Below, piece by piece: positions 44,249 to 52,554 of a stretch of DNA of 64,000 nucleotides; positions within the stretch are counted from its first letter, which is position 1, and each line of letters starts with the position of its first letter. The position numbers were made by a program, and so were the translations under genes. The stretch comes from Spongilla lacustris (Eukaryota; Porifera; Demospongiae; Spongillida; Spongillidae), in assembly GCA_949361645.1 (NCBI GenBank), contig OX442416.1, forward strand, positions 8,252,362 through 8,316,361. Reading direction: 5' to 3'. The notes beneath the pieces were generated by a model, which saw only the letters and a list, made by a program, of their open reading frames with translations, had not been told where the DNA came from and did not search any database.

Positions 44249-44721
44249 GAGTATGGCAATGCTGGTCACAGGAAAAAGTTATAAACGTCCAGCCTGGATT
44301 TTTTAGACTGGTTTTTAACTAAAACCCATCTTAATAGCGTAGAAATCATCCTGGGATTGTGCGTCCAGGGTGGGAATAGTGCAAAAACCATCATGGGATT
44401 GAGCGTCCAGGGTGGGAATATGTATGGTTCTACCCTGGTTCTGTCGAACAAAACCCATGTTGAGGCAATTATTATATTCATCCTTGAACATGGATTTTGT
44501 TCGACAGAACCAGGGTAGAACCATACATATTCCCACCCTGGACGCTCAATCCCATGATGGTTTTTGCACTATTCCCACCCTGGACGCACAATCCCAAGAT
44601 GGATTTTAAGCTATTAGGATGGGTATTTGTTAAAAACCAGCCCAAAAAAATCCAGGCTGGACGTTTATAACTTTTTCCTGTGGGTGTTAAAGGATCATCA
44701 TGGTATCGAATTATGGTCATC
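44249..44721 (+). pseudogene. XPOT: XPOT exon m, split by a MITE
   Basis: The exon opens after TTTATGCAG with GAGTATGGCAATGCTGGT and is then interrupted by the 416-bp MITE at 44267-44682. It resumes at 44686 with VKGSSWYRIMVI up to donor GTAAGT. Removing the MITE and one GGT copy leaves 54 nt, in phase 0 at the start. The junction phase with exon n does not fit cleanly, so the 3' boundary or the frame may be damaged. Confidence 0.6.
44267..44682. mobile_element. MITE with CACAG ends, copy 2 (3-bp TSD GGT), in XPOT exon
   Basis: Fold-back element of 416 bp. It begins CACAGGAAAAAGTTATAAAC and ends with the inverted complement ...CTTTTTCCTGTG. GGT flanks it at 44264-44266 and 44683-44685. Same family as 26373-26801: shared GTCCAGCCTGGATTTTTTAG ends and interior GGGATTGAGCGTCCAG units. 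The arms are nearly 200 bp each, so a transcript would form a long hairpin. Confidence 0.9.
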
Positions 44722-45076
44722 GTAAGTACATGTACATGTAGCTAGATATTTGTGGCTTATGGGATTGGTCATTTATTATACATGTATGTAATATATAATG
44801 TGTACTTTACTATTCCTCACGTGCGATATTATGTTTAGATAATATTGTACTGTTACATGTTGAGGTTGGGGGAGGGGTCTACATGCGTACAGTGTATATA
44901 TGGCTAAACACTGTATTTGTGCTGCAGTCTGATTCAGCCATGCATCTGAATTGAGACATTATCATGACTGGGGCATGGTTTACTTACCCGGTCTAATATG
45001 TCTCCCATTAAGCTTACCATATGTGTGTGGTTGTTCGTGTATATGATGTGTGCATTAATCATTCCTTATTTGCAAG

Positions 45077-45905: not shown

Positions 45906-45960
45906 AGCATAAATGTATGCATGTTATTGTCTTCTTGTAGTTTTATGAGGTTTTGGTCAT

Positions 45961-45998
45961 CCCTAAGAAAAAATATCGTCAAGTCTTGCCATGACTTG
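45961..45998 (+). repeat. Left terminal inverted repeat
   Basis: CCCTAAGAAAAAA followed by TATCGTCAAGTCTTGCCATG. It pairs with 52250-52287 with a few mismatches and a one-base length change in the A run. Confidence 0.9.
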
Positions 45999-46065
45999 AC
46001 AAGACATTTCAAGCTTTATCATGACTTGGAAAGCCTTGCAATGTCTTACCATGTATTATTGTGTC
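45975..46065. promoter_or_regulatory. Left subterminal repeats
   Basis: Several copies, in both orientations, of a motif close to CAAGTCTTG or CATGACTTG within about 90 bp. Clustered subterminal motifs are typical protein-binding sites in CACTA elements (bound by TNPA in En/Spm). Binding here is inferred. Confidence 0.65.
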
Positions 46066-46169
46066 CTAGCTGGTCACACAATATTTTCACTTGGCATTAT
46101 GTCTTGCCATATAATTTCTGAAATAGTGGAAAGTACATAGAACAATGTATTTGAATAAAATAGATAAGT

Positions 46170-49100
46170 TTAATTGTGTTCAAACATGTTTGGTTGCCTA
46201 ACTAAATATCTGTTAGCATTGTCAATAACAATTATCATTGACTTTGCTGTTATTGCATCAATTGGGGCTGCAATGAGATGCAGAGATTCTCTCACGACCT
46301 TAACAGCAAAATTGCTAGCTGCCAGAATGTCAATTTCTTTGTATACATTAAGGCACTCTCTGCACGTTGGACCAGCGTCCTTCAAAATAGATGTAACTTG
46401 ATAGGGACTTAGTAACACCATTGGTTGTGAGGTGTACACAAATGATAGTATTTTTCCAAACTTCACAGTATTGGATGATGGATCTCTGAAGGCACAAACA
46501 CTGCTGTCTCGTTTTGTAGTCTTCTTTGTGGATGCACAGTATAGCACACCATGTTTCAATAACTTTTTGTACTTAACTATTCGTCCAGTGCAATCAAGTG
46601 CATTTTTCTCATCAGCATTTGGTTCTTCAATTGATGGGCCATTTAAGAAATAGGTGTGTTGTCCAATACATACCTTATCCTGCAGTGCACCTATATCTAG
46701 ATTACTTCTCAGTATGGTTTGCATTGGTGAATCTGTATCATCAATTATGGGTTGGATTAACTGAAGTGTTTGACTAACATCAATATTAAACAACATTTGC
46801 TGATAAAAAGAACTTTTTCCATGTGACAATTTCTTCAAGTGACCATTTTTACTTTCAAAAGCAAATGTTGAGTGTGTCCATAGTGGTCCCCACAGTCTAA
46901 CATACATGGGTAAATGCAAAAGCATGTGAGCATTAGCTGTGCAATTTTTTTCACCATAGAGCTCAGGTAATAAAGAAACAAAATCTTTCAGCATCATTTC
47001 AGCTGCCTCAACTTGCTGAACGGAAATAGATTCTTGAAGCAATATATGAAGAGCAGTCACTAGTAGGACATAGTGGTGATAGTAAAGTGATGGTAAGTAA
47101 CCTTTAAGGATAGGGACTGAATAAAAAAGTAACCAGTTCTTAAATTCAGATGCCTTCCAGTAATGTAAATGCTTAGAAATTGACCGAGGTCGCCTACTGA
47201 ACTCATGCGGAGGGCGTTGATTTGCCAGAATTTTGTCAATCGTAGACAAATATTTACCCAAGTAGAATGGTTCAGTATGGTTAGAGGAATCGAACCATAA
47301 ATGCATCAATCTCTTTACTACTCCCTCTAGTACACAATGCATATAGTCAAGAGGAATGCCATGAACTAAATCTAATAATGATGACAAAGGAGAAACACCT
47401 TTGACGCCATTCACTGATTGTTTACTGATTTCAGCTGATTGTGCATCATGTAGAATATCAGCATGTGTTCGCATTGGGTAGTCAATTCCTGGTAGGAATA
47501 CACGGGATCCATTGCCAAGGCGTTTACCAGGGTGGAGGCATACATTGCAACCATATTCACCATTGAATTGTTTCATTGTAAGGACTAAAGCCCTTGCTAT
47601 TAGATCAAAGACAGCAGAAACTAGTTTAACTTTACATAACTGTGTCTGACCATTAGAACTGTGCATCATAAAACCAGTTTCATAAAGATTATTCAGATTT
47701 TTTAACACAGGGTCCAGCAAAAGCCTTGCATTCGGCTTGTTCGGTCCATACCATAGTCCACACAAAATTATGTTTTCAGCTTTCTGACGTAGTATTGGAG
47801 GAAGATTCAGTACCATTAAAAGAACAGGCCAAATACTGACTGCACTGGATTTGTAGATTGGTATTCCATCAGTGCAAAGGGTGACAGCTAGATTAAGTGG
47901 TGACTCATTAAAAAAACTGTCTTGAGAAAGGGATGATTGTAAAACAGATCCAGACCAAACATCTGTTAGTTTTCCAACACTGAATTCTCTGTTATTATAA
48001 CTAAGTTGTAGCTCTTGATGATTGCCTAAATAAATTAAAATAACACAGAAAAGTACATGTACATTAGTATAAGCTTATGCTATCATATGCATGCACACCA
48101 CTATTACTTATAAGTTGACCATACTTGTTATCATACACAGTACTAACTGTAAATAGTAAATTGTCACTCACGTGATACAACTGACTGTAAAGATTTCATT
48201 ATTGACATATGGATCAAATGTCCAGGGTTTTCAGACTGTAGAGTACAGGTACATTTGTCTTCAAAAGGAATAGAACATGTAGAACAAATCTTCTGATCTT
48301 TAAAACCTGCAGAGAATTGCTTAAAAAACTGTTTAAGTTTGTGCAGGCTTTTTGGAAGTGCATTTGGTACAGGACATATCAAGTGAAGTAGATGTATAAG
48401 GCCCTCCATAGCTTTGTATGAAAGTTTGTATTTATAAGCATATTGCATTATAATGCAATATGTCATGCAAATATTGATGCTTGCTCCCGAATAAAGAGGT
48501 TGTAAAAAATTTGGATCTAGTTGACATCCATCAAACACTCTACCTTGAAATACATCATTTTCTGATTCAGATTCAGTGTCACCTATTGCAGATTTATCTG
48601 TGTCAGAAATATCTTCCATTTCCTGTTCTATTTCAGGAACAACTTCCACTTCTTCGATTTGATCTACTTCAGCCTCTTCTGTGTCAGACCGATCTTGCAT
48701 GCTCTCAACTTCCTCTGTGTTTGTACTAAGACCTGAGTTTTCATCACCAGTAGTAACTTCATTGTCAGATTCAGTAATGTTTGCTGTTTGTGATACACCT
48801 GTCCAATTATACATTTCATGGCATATGATTATTGCTGTTACATGCATTCAATGCATTTACCAATGATTCCATTAGTAGTGGAATTCTTTGCTGCCAATCT
48901 AAACAGATAAATAAATCACAAGCATGCCATACATATACATGCATGTACTTACATGTATATGTACATCATGTATGTACTTACATGTATGTACATGCATGCG
49001 TATACTAGTTGGGCGTAGCCCGACCTTCACGTATTGGCGTAAGGTCGTGTATCAAGCATATACCTGGATTTGTACCCATCTGATACAATACGCGAAGGTC

Positions 49101-49285
49101 GGGCGACGCCCAACTACATGCGTACATCCTCCTTTTCAACGAGGGGAGGAGGGGGGAAATTAATGGCTTAAAGACTCTAACCTGTATAGACGATGCTTGA
49201 AATGACGCCAAGCTGTAGTACGGGGAATTGCTTTTTCACTTTCGGTTAGATATCTGCGATAGGTGATACATTGTCTCCGCTCCAT
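46170..49285 (-). CDS. CACTA/EnSpm-like DDE transposase, 4 exons, 874 aa
   Basis: Exons on the minus strand are 49285-49182, 48898-48861, 48798-48172 and 48025-46170. All introns are GT-AG and the spliced frame is exactly 875 codons with no break. The start MERRQCITYRRYLTESEKAI lies 71 bp from the divergent BEN gene. An acidic Asp/Glu-rich segment spans roughly residues 55-120. The block YKYKLSYKAMEGLIHLLHL is a usual N-terminal feature of animal CACTA-type transposases. The catalytic region has TLCTDGIPIYKSS (D309), FDLIARA (D397), a C416-x2-C419 knuckle, DYMHCVLEGV (D483) and FAFESKNGHLKKL (E647). I infer D309, D397 and E647 as the DDE triad. Usual product: cuts and joins element ends in the nucleus. 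Taking the internal Met at residue 327 as the start would lose D309, so the spliced start is preferred. Confidence 0.88.
49008..49114. mobile_element. Short mariner-like MITE nested in transposase intron 1
   Basis: 107-bp element: arms GTTGGGCGTAGCCCGACCTT and its inverted complement, with one mismatch over 21 bp, around a ~50-bp loop. TA flanks both ends (49006-49007, 49115-49116). TA duplications and short palindromic arms are typical of Tc1/mariner MITEs. Confidence 0.75.
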
Positions 49286-49356
49286 TCTGAAAAAAACAGA
49301 ACATAATCTAATAACGCATGCGCATTTTGATTCACGTGTTCAGCATTTCAAGGACA
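49286..49356. promoter_or_regulatory. 71-bp bidirectional promoter between transposase and BEN genes
   Basis: Only 71 bp separate the two divergent start codons. The interval contains the palindromic motif GCATGCGC (49316-49323, NRF1-like) and an E-box CACGTG (49333-49338). A shared promoter would co-express the two proteins. The factor names come from general animal motifs and are inferred. Confidence 0.6.
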
Positions 49357-52016
49357 ATGGCGGATTCTGAGCAAAGCACACGTAGGCCTAAAAGAACTGG
49401 AAAAAGAACGCAAAAGGCCCTTGAACAAGAAGGAGGATGTGAAGAGATGCAAACTCGTAAGTATATGTTAATAATGTCTGTATATGCATGGTGTATACCT
49501 GCATGTGTATTAAAATAGTACAGAACTAGCGTGCGACGATAGGCCGTATATGTGCAGATCACTACCGCAATAGTTTTAATGCATTTCTGGTAATTATTAT
49601 ATTTCCCATGCCAGGTATGTGTGTTTGTACTGTTTTCTAACTGCATGATCTACTCAATCGCAATCGCGGATCGTTTGTAGGGCCAATTAAGGTGAAGTGT
49701 GCACAGACCGGGAAAGTGTTCCTGACAAAAGTGTGCAACCTCAGTAAAGAGGATGAATCGGAGTGCATAACTGCCGAGGACCTAAGGCCAGGAGTTGGGC
49801 TATTGTGTGATGTTAAGGGGAAAACGTACCCTATAGAGGTTGTCGCTTTTCAAGGTAAGCCGTACAAGCATGCGCATGCGTTGTACTTATATCTGGGCCG
49901 CGCTTATATAAGATGGTGGTGATTCTTCGGAACAAGAAGTAAGCAGCATGCATGCGTGCAGGATGGGAATCTGGCTAAGTCTAAATTGTGTTTATATAAT
50001 GCATGTAGCCTCTGTCAGAACAGTGCAAGCGAGCCGATACGGGGCGCGATTCAGAAATAGATGGTGGCGATGCTGCTTCAAGTGATAGCACCAGGCGAAG
50101 ACAAGAAGTATTAGTAAGCAGCGCGCATGCAGGATGGGAATCTAAAGTCTAAACTGTGTCTATATCATGTAGCCTCAGTGGAAGCAAGGTGATATGCGGC
50201 GCAATTCTGATGGTGGCGATGCTGCTTCAAGTGATAGCACCAGGCGAAGACAAGAAGTAAGCAGCGCGCATGCAGGATGGGAATCTATAACGTCTAAACT
50301 GTGTCTATACCATGTAGCCTCAGTGGAAGCAAGGTGATATGCGGCGCAATTCTGATGGTGGTGATGCTGCTTCAAGTGATAGCACCAGGCGAAGACAAGA
50401 AGTAAGCAGCGCGCATGCAGGATGGGAATCTAAAGTTTGAACCGTGTGTATATCATGTAGCCTCAGTGGAAGCAAGCTGATATGTGGCACAGTTCTGATG
50501 ATGGCGATGCTGCTTCTAGTGATAGGCGAAGACAAGAAGTAAGCAGCGCGCATGCAGGATGGGAATCTAAAGTTTGAACTGTGTATATCATGTAGCCTCA
50601 GTGGAAGCAAGCTGATATGTGGCGCAGTACAGGTGGTGGCGATGCTGCTTCAAGTGATAGCACCAGGCAAAGACAAGAAGTAAGCAGCGTGCATGCATGC
50701 AGGATGGGAATCTAAAGTTTGAACTGTGTCTATATCATGTAGCCTCAGTGGAAGCAAGCTGATATGCGGCACAGTACAGGTGGTGGCGATGCTGCTTCAA
50801 GTGATAGCACCAGGCAAAGACAAGAAGTAAGCAGCGTGCATGCATGCAGGATGGGAATCTAAAGTTTGAACTGTGTCTATATCATGTAGCCTCAGTGGAA
50901 GCAAGCTGATATGTGGCGCAGTACAGGTGGTGACGATGCTGCTTCAAGTGATAGCACCAGGCGAAGACAAGACGTAAACAGCGTGCATGCAGGATGGGGA
51001 TCTAAAGTTTGAACTGTGTCTATGATGTCATAATCCAAGCCCCTGAAGAGTGTAGAGCAGCATAAACGAGCCATTCTATTGGATGCAATACAGGGAGCTA
51101 CCAGTTCACATGTTTCTAGTGACTGGGCCAGGGTTCGTGAGCACGCATGCATGGAATGTGCTGTGCAACATGCATTTATTTTAATTCTGCAGTTTTCTGG
51201 TCATGAGCAGTCTCCTTCATTGAAGAGTGTAAGCTATAACGTACATTTGTAGATAATACTGTCACATTTTGCCATACATGCCAGCAGTTTAGCAGTTCAG
51301 AGTCTGAACAATCACAGGTAAAAGCATATATATGGCACTGAATGAATGTAAAAAGAAATAACTATGTACATGTACATGTATACTTTTCATGTGGAAGAAT
51401 CAAGAAATGGTACGTGATTACTATGTTATTCAATATAAATGACTTCTTTTCTGTTACAGATTACACTGTTAATGAGCATAAATGGCAAGCTCAGTCACAT
51501 ACTTGACCATATCTCTGAACAAGCCAAATCAGTGTAAGCCCAGCTACGAATAGTGTATTATATATACATGTATTATAAAATGATATACATGTAGTTCTAA
51601 GAAGGAAAGCTCAGCAGTGGAGTTTGCCCAGGAGTCACGTAATGAAGAGGATTGGGTTAGTTTTAGAATAGCAATTTTTCTTTGCTAATACCTTGTATTT
51701 ACATCCAGTTCAATGGTGTTAATTTAACACTAATTCCAAAGAGAAACATTTACACCTATGGCTTGTCGCTGCTTGACATCTTCTTTTCAAAGAAAGAACT
51801 TCGGGAATCCCTGCTTTTTCCTTCTATGAAAAGCCCAAAGCCTTCACTGTGTCCGGAAAAGGTTCAGCGGATAATTGGTAAACAAACATACACAAGATTC
51901 TTCTTACTGACTTGTTGTTCATGGTTGTAGCAACAATCAAGAGGCAGTTCCCAACAGAACCCTTTGATCTTGCAGTTTTCACAACGAAGGCGAACCAGAA
52001 GTGCCGAGATAGTTGA
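49357..52016 (+). CDS. BEN-domain protein of the transposon, 16 exons, 501 aa
   Basis: Exons: 49357-49456, 49681-49854, 49913-49938, 50009-50107, 50173-50256, 50318-50401, 50461-50538, 50596-50679, 50743-50826, 50890-50973, 51040-51228, 51288-51317, 51460-51533, 51595-51655, 51709-51877, 51931-52016. Phases agree at every junction and the sum is 1,506 nt with one stop. The N-terminus is basic (RRPKRTGKRTQKAL). Exon 2 encodes a compact domain (KVKCAQTGKVFLTKVCNL...VGLLCDVKGKTYPIEVVAF). A repeated charged linker follows, then the C-terminal BEN domain (NLTLIPKRNIYTYGLSLLDI...LCPEKVQRIIG...NQKCRDS). BEN domains bind DNA or chromatin proteins. Exon 11 may instead be a shorter exon from 51193, which keeps the same frame. 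Product probably nuclear. A role in transposition is inferred from its location inside the inverted repeats. Confidence 0.85.
50009..50973 (+). repeat. Tandem array of one phase-0 exon with its intron (6 copies plus a diverged first copy)
   Basis: Units of about 135-150 bp. Exon part 84 nt (five copies) or 78 nt (one copy), encoding PQWKQ-DMRRN-S-DGGDAASSDSTRRRQE-type sequence. A 99-nt diverged copy (50009-50107) precedes them. Each intron carries GTAAGCAGCGCGCATGCAGG at its 5' end and ATATCATGTAG at its 3' end. All exon copies start and end in phase 0, so any number can be included or skipped without shifting the BEN frame. Confidence 0.92.
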
Positions 52017-52194
52017 GCTTGAACAAAATGACGTCAATCAACTCTAAAATGACTTACTGTTTTTCCCCTAGTTATTTTTCATGTATTGTGCTGTTTACCA
52101 CTATTAATCTTTCATACACTGTGTGGCATTGCATGGGTGTAATTTACATGGGGCATCTTACATGGCCATGAAAGGACTTGTAAGATCTGTTCCA

Positions 52195-52287
52195 TTTTCA
52201 TGCCAAGACTTGACATAGATCCCAGTCAAGTCTTGTCAAGAAGTCATGGTAAGTCTTGGCAAGACTTGGAGAATTTTTTTCTTAGGG
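52195..52287. promoter_or_regulatory. Right subterminal repeats and right terminal inverted repeat
   Basis: Contains CCAAGACTTG, CAAGTCTTGTCAAGA, GTAAGTCTTGGCAAGACTTG and then the terminal TTTTTTTCTTAGGG. Both orientations of the AAGTCTTG motif are present, mirroring the left end. Confidence 0.8.
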
Positions 52288-52554
52288 ATATATGAGAAGT
52301 TATTTGTTACAGCAAAGCATTATCTGCCTGGAATCATGGTGTGAGTATGTGTGTGCAGTCTGTGGTGTGTCTGTCATACAATAGATATCATTTATATGGT
52401 TTACTTCTATGACCCTGGCATTGTGATTGCATGCACATGATATATTTTAGTTGCCTTTAAGGCATGTAGACAGAGGAGCAAAGAGAACTGTATTTGCATC
52501 ATATGTTTGATTCAGAGTGTGGGTACATGTACACTAAGAAATAGTGTACATGTG

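Follow-up and report, generated by a model that had tools for sequence, protein, structure and literature searches.

A complete cut-and-paste transposon of 6,327 bp lies at positions 45961-52287 of the window, a 64,000-nucleotide stretch of Spongilla lacustris DNA, and encodes a CACTA-type transposase and a BEN-domain protein as an inherited pair. Based on its sequence, the element is assigned to the CACTA-type, animal CCC-type (TRC, CMC) group. Both genes are common to diverged relatives of the element in the host genome (248.6 Mb searched), suggesting that the two proteins probably act together. The BEN gene carried together with the transposase appears to be new, whereas a CCC-type CACTA transposon with a second protein is known (PMC1636069).

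The terminal inverted repeat CCCTAAGAAAAAA occupies positions 45961-45973 on the plus strand, and its reverse complement occupies positions 52275-52287 on the minus strand; a 47-nt inverted repeat with 83% identity encloses the termini. The element is flanked by two copies of the dinucleotide AT (45959-45960 and 52288-52289), a target-site duplication. A paralogous empty site on another contig (C1:21929131-21929210) matched the joined flanks with 94% identity over 80/80 bases and aligned gap-free across the junction; thus, the borders proposed in an earlier sequence-only reading of the window are exact. The empty site carries AG as the target dinucleotide versus AT in the window, and its similarity to the left flank extends for only 55 bp. 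The elements were grouped into seven families: F1 (window), F2 (L013, L014), F3 (L015, L017), F4 (L018-L020), F5 (L041), F6 (L042) and F7 (L040, L044, L045, with L051 as a transposase relic). Target-site duplications of 2 bp are present in 13 of the 15 elements with both ends read, except for L018 and L041, and the termini of the elements examined start with CCC, except for one L014 end (CCG). In contrast to the CACTA termini and the 3-base duplication of plant CACTA elements (Tgmt*, PMC2613891), the window element has CCCTA termini and an AT duplication. The CCCTA termini had been taken as a sign of an unusual branch. This novelty was dropped because TRC elements, the animal relatives of CACTA elements, were described in 2006 with terminal inverted repeats starting with CCC and 2-bp direct repeats, and the Tribolium TRC example begins with CCCTAG (PMC1636069).

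The transposase gene lies on the minus strand and comprises four exons at 49182-49285 (exon 1, with the start codon at 49285), 48861-48898 (exon 2), 48172-48798 (exon 3) and 46170-48025 (exon 4, with the PF02992 Transposase_21 core and the stop codon). Splicing of these exons gives exactly the 875 codons, including the stop, that had been proposed. A 111-bp palindromic insert with 31-nt arms (94%), resembling a small hairpin insertion, is located in the first intron (49006-49116). The Pfam match to PF02992 has an E-value of 4.2e-17 and a score of 62.5 bits versus a cut-off of 28.6. The motifs TDG, FDL, CNVC, HMLLH and FES are located at protein positions 308, 396, 416, 623 and 646, respectively, and 10 aligned sequences all share the residues D, D, C, C, H, H and E of these motifs. 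The CMC pattern is present, with D/D/E and with C(2)C and H(3-4)H between the second D and the E; the choice of the catalytic D follows our reading of the rule in PMC12730594. The protein searches scored the 7,999 and 8,000 candidates that had the most words in common with the query, and 120 of 425 transposase matches were listed. P0089, a relative of the window transposase, has an uncultured Candidatus Thioglobus bacterium as its recorded source and is perhaps contaminating sponge DNA. Scanning bacterial genome contigs with P0089 gave no match, and transposase scans of bacterial and viral contigs gave nothing useful.

The BEN gene is divergent from the transposase gene on the plus strand, with the two starts separated by only 71 bp (49285 and 49357). 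The encoded protein consists of an N-terminal domain, a tandem mini-exon array and a C-terminal BEN domain. Exon 1 (49357-49456) is followed by exon 2 (49681-49854), which encodes the N-terminal domain (CxQTGK...GKxYPV); all seven families have this domain, with a weak match in F7. Exon 3 (50019-50113) is related in sequence to the six tandem phase-0 mini-exons of 78-84 nt, arranged in repeat units of ~147 bp (50173-50973). The linker exons (51040-51132, 51193-51228 and 51288-51317) and two further exons (51460-51533 and 51595-51655) precede the BEN domain exons at 51709-51877 and 51931-52016, the latter including the stop. The frame is open, as the sequence-only reading had it, with 470-496 codons depending on the splice choice instead of the 502 then given. 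A pattern search of five full-length F1 copies found 7, 5, 6, 8 and 7 exon units, exon 3 counted, and the arrays of L009 and L010 contain one irregular unit apiece. Gene models of Ephydatia muelleri support the repeated mini-exons and the BEN exons; the best model (P0121) is without exon 2, which is present in others such as P0134.

The BEN label was not reproduced from the window copy alone, as the window protein has no Pfam match up to E=10. It is carried instead by three relatives with the same exons, which pass the PF10523 gathering score of 23.2 (F3, 28.7; F5, 27.0; F6, 26.7), whereas F7 (20.8) and F4 (16.6) score below it. The BEN region of the window protein is 40-54% identical to those of these families. 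A profile search with the BEN protein found at least 77 proteins; some of them are metagenomic and have a precomputed PF10523 assignment, and P0139 shows the same two-domain layout as the window protein. All 18 relatives in one search are E. muelleri records, as read from their 'Em' gene names, and the BEN exon of one E. muelleri record is identical to that of the window. Nothing useful came from searching PDB sequences with the BEN region of the window element or Rfam with window positions 30000-64000.

The association of the two genes was analysed across the host genome. Merging of 73 rows of transposase matches gave 65 loci, and a single 56-aa exon query placed the BEN exon at 53 or more places, counts that are lower bounds. 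A divergent BEN exon is located within 10 kb at 30 of the 65 transposase loci, compared with 0.07 expected under uniform placement; therefore, co-location by chance was rejected, and the earlier proposal that one transposon combines a BEN protein with a CACTA-type transposase is supported, the two being an inherited pair. The explanation that the genes are neighbours by chance, or that the element borders are wrong, is contradicted by these 30 pairs and also by the empty site and the target-site duplications; nothing in its favour was found, and its probability is negligible. The pairing depends on the identity of the transposase, with a partner at 30 of the 37 loci with a best identity of at least 41% and at none of the 28 loci below. 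No BEN partner was detected at the other seven of the 37 loci. Other copies with both genes exist, but BEN loci with no detected transposase partner (23 of 53, the other 30 having one) speak against a system that always comprises both genes. By hand comparison, seven of these 23 loci adjoin a right end of F7, a family with BEN only.

The two-gene layout is common to F1, F2, F4, F5, F6 and the F7 relics, and the pairing spans six diverged transposase lineages, the transposases of the paired families being 43-70% identical. A FastTree phylogeny of 125 tips, rooted on one BEN-less transposase, placed the F1-F7 transposases in a group of 16 tips with a support of 0.93, six of the tips being database proteins that may or may not have a BEN partner; five sampled BEN-less transposases fall outside the group. 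Database transposases with 450 or fewer core residues were excluded from this tree, leaving 110 of the 120 listed. Within it, the pairs F4+F7 and F5+F6 both have a support of 1.0 and F1+F2 of 0.98, values that apply to the pairs only. The BEN domains of F4 and F7 (70%) and of F5 and F6 (67%) are also the closest pairs, in agreement with the transposases. However, the F1 BEN domain is slightly nearer to that of F7 (54%) than to that of F2 (51%), unlike the transposases. Pairwise identities of the transposases and the BEN domains correlate with r=0.84, a value reached by 16 of 720 permutations. In these comparisons, the transposase and the BEN protein diverge largely in parallel.

Comparisons of substitution rates showed that BEN is under purifying selection where measurable. 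The F5-F6 pair has a dN of 0.29 and a dS of 1.87 over 143 codons, and the F4-F7 pair has a pN of 0.19 and a pS of 0.93 over 132 codons. No information on selection comes from F2-F3, a near-identical pair (dN 0.02, dS 0.01). For the transposase, the F5-F6 pair has a dN of 0.17 and a dS of 1.39 over 584 codons, and the F1-F4 pair was left out for a frame problem in L018. Transposons capture genes, and a transposase partner is lacking at 23 of the 53 BEN loci, as might be expected if BEN were a mere passenger, a host gene captured by chance. However, the retention of the pairing across transposases of 43-70% identity, the parallel divergence and the purifying selection all argue against a passenger, which is thus very improbable.

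The window element is intact and was recently mobile. A search for the F1 termini allowing up to two mismatches found five left and seven right ends, compared with none for the reversed control. The window element, L009, L010 and L039 differ from each other at 2-7 of ~5,170 positions (0.04-0.14%), and L012, the fifth full-length copy, is 0.66-0.72% different; these comparisons excluded the mini-exon array. The window, C17 and C5 copies have an open frame for the transposase core; in the C18 and C20 copies this frame is broken. Partial F1 copies were also found. L034, L035 and L037 contain the BEN side with no left end or transposase within the stretch examined, L036 retains parts of both genes, and L038 shows a greater divergence. 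Short blast rows in or near the repeat array, and BEN rows inside it, were excluded. The C18 copy (L012) is bracketed by two copies of a direct repeat of ~24 bp from the flank; its insertion was therefore into a tandem repeat or next to one.

The ends of the element contain arrays of CAAG/CTTG/CATG half-sites, at 45979-46060 on the left, where they lie on a 5-bp grid, and at 52130-52268 on the right. The density of CAAG, CTTG and CATG is 6.0-11.7 per 100 bp at the ends versus 1.5-2.1 inside. The gaps between half-sites at the ends are divisible by 5 in 18/24 cases in F1, 24/28 in F2, 24/28 in F3, 20/25 in F4 and 18/23 in F7, compared with 12-20% of the interior gaps in these families. This grid is absent in the sister families F5 (2/36 gaps) and F6 (6/25), which share a different end motif, CATGCA/GCATGA. 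The commonest 6-mer at the ends exceeds all 300 interior samples in F2, F5, F6 and F7, and is within the range of the interior samples in F1, F3 and F4. The subterminal repeats noted from the sequence alone are confirmed: the motif CA[AT]GNCNTG occurs three times in each terminal 250 bp of the window element and not once in between. By a second measure, the top end 6-mer (count 7) does not exceed the interior of the same element (a null with a mean of 5.7 and a maximum of 18), which includes the array of 147-bp repeats. The half-helical-turn spacing of the sites suggests an ordered assembly of a DNA-binding protein on the half-sites.

The sequence-only reading had assigned the BEN protein the role of TNPA, and such a role is plausible by analogy. 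The explanation that we favour, and consider rather probable, is that of a CCC-type CACTA element in which the D/D/E transposase would cut at the CCC termini and the BEN protein would bind the helically phased CAAG/CTTG/CATG arrays inside both ends. The bound BEN protein would assemble the element ends for the transposase and/or control the promoters of the element. It would thereby perform a TNPA-like job as a presumably unrelated protein, analogous in role rather than homologous to TNPA. As BEN could act in trans, deletion derivatives with only BEN and the ends could still spread. The subterminal sites could alternatively be bound by the transposase itself.

BEN proteins of hosts act as transcription factors or chromatin factors, and the BEN protein of the element might likewise be mainly a regulator that stays outside the transposition complex and acts in anti-silencing or self-repression at a shared promoter. 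The two genes begin only 71 bp apart, so that one region would drive both, and TNPA also regulates the Spm promoter (PMC1636069). However, the half-site motif is confined to the two ends, with none between the terminal 250-bp stretches and thus none at the shared promoter, and the arrays are retained in the BEN-only family. A mainly regulatory role is unlikely beside the favoured role at the element ends, yet it is the likeliest of the alternatives.

The idea that BEN always accompanies a transposase is contradicted by F3 and F7. The F7 copies L044 (3,110 bp, TA duplication) and L045 (3,122 bp, GT duplication) contain the BEN exons and both termini; of the transposase they keep 23 aa traceable to exon 1 and no core. 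The C7 copy of F7 is similar to these but has a nested insert. The right-end pattern of F7 was located at 11 places, and by hand comparison 10 of them have a BEN exon 394-434 bp away; seven of these 10 are without and three are with a transposase partner. Four F7-like transposase relatives were detected, three at F7 right ends and one by an F7-like BEN exon, and they contain 2, 5, 15 and 21 stops. The F7 and F4 termini resemble each other, and at least one F4 transposase is open (C4:1830248); F7 may thus be mobilised by F4. Similarly, the F3 copies L015 and L017 retain the BEN exons and have lost the middle of the transposase. L016 has a left end of the F3 type together with pieces of the transposase, and showed no BEN in the 9.1 kb examined. 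A BEN protein that serves itself, by limiting the copy number or by hitch-hiking on a foreign transposase, would fit a family such as F7, which lacks the transposase core and whose detected transposase relatives contain stops. Its retention beside the open transposases of F1, F4, F5 and F6 speaks against such a self-serving role, which we regard as improbable. A 477-aa frame in L040 (3654-5087, minus strand) was considered as the F7 transposase and rejected; ten more near-identical long matches lie away from BEN loci, and several of the ten adjoin transposase matches of 28% identity, indicating another, distantly related CACTA-type element that is nested in L040. A 21-bp minisatellite adjoins the frame in L040.

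Comparisons with known systems showed the closest likeness in organization to SmTRC1 of Schistosoma mansoni and to the plant CACTA elements. SmTRC1 has a PF02992 transposase, CCC inverted repeats and 2-bp direct repeats, and a second protein was proposed for the DNA-binding job of TNPA (PMC1636069). However, the second proteins of SmTRC1 arise from alternative splicing and had no detectable relatives (PMC1636069), whereas that of the sponge element is encoded by a separate divergent gene and has a BEN domain. The plant elements (En/Spm, soybean Tgmt*) similarly encode a transposase (TNPD) and a second protein (TNPA), contain subterminal repeats and have non-autonomous derivatives mobilised in trans (PMC2613891). 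Their second proteins show little mutual similarity and their subterminal repeats differ, and the accessible part of the same source does not mention a BEN domain (PMC2613891). Fungal transposons with TET/JBP genes belong to the CMC type and to other groups of DNA transposons; they likewise have an accessory gene and the transposase motifs C(2)C and H(3-4)H. Their accessory gene encodes an enzyme, and the term BEN is absent from the accessible part of that source (PMC12730594). In the accessible part of PMC5704228, the term 'BEN domain' appears in a reference. No transposon-encoded BEN protein was described in the titles and abstract beginnings searched, a scope lying outside Repbase reports and most subscription journals. 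The sponge protein resembles the host BEN-domain proteins (PF10523) in its C-terminal BEN domain, and differs from them in being transposon-encoded and in having a conserved N-terminal domain and, in F1, a variable mini-exon array. To our knowledge, the BEN domain is otherwise known from chromatin factors and viruses, and the binding of transposon ends would be a natural context for it. The conserved linkage, the clear candidate site array and the nearly identical young copies make the proposed role testable, and the BEN-only derivatives let the two functions be separated.

The pair may also exist elsewhere. The longest contigs of P0151 (BEN) and P0010 (transposase) are equal in length (6,513 bp), as are those of P0194 (BEN) and P0086 (transposase) (1,430,248 bp), when 120 transposase matches are compared with 49 of the 77 BEN matches (E. 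muelleri rows excluded); two or more equal contigs arise in 0.9% of a jittered null. These coincidences hint that the pair is present beyond the sponge families, also outside the F1-F7 tree group. Since other contigs appear to encode both genes, the pairing would be older than the freshwater sponges, and mobile elements may thus be a source of animal and viral BEN DNA-binding proteins. Combined with BEN as the missing second component of an animal CACTA lineage, with an ordered phased assembly, action in trans and BEN-only parasites, this forms a joint reading that is attractive but tentative and, as a whole, doubtful.

Five further BEN matches at the Pfam level (C4:6653901, C1:2375675, C2:5472045, C3:14473771 and C5:4925997) coincide with none of the 53 BEN loci and are possibly host or other mobile BEN genes. 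Outside the element, a long inverted repeat is located at window positions 44266-44741; its opposite-strand frames read nearly the same peptide (VGICMVLPWFCRTK...), and it is thus probably a palindromic non-autonomous repeat.
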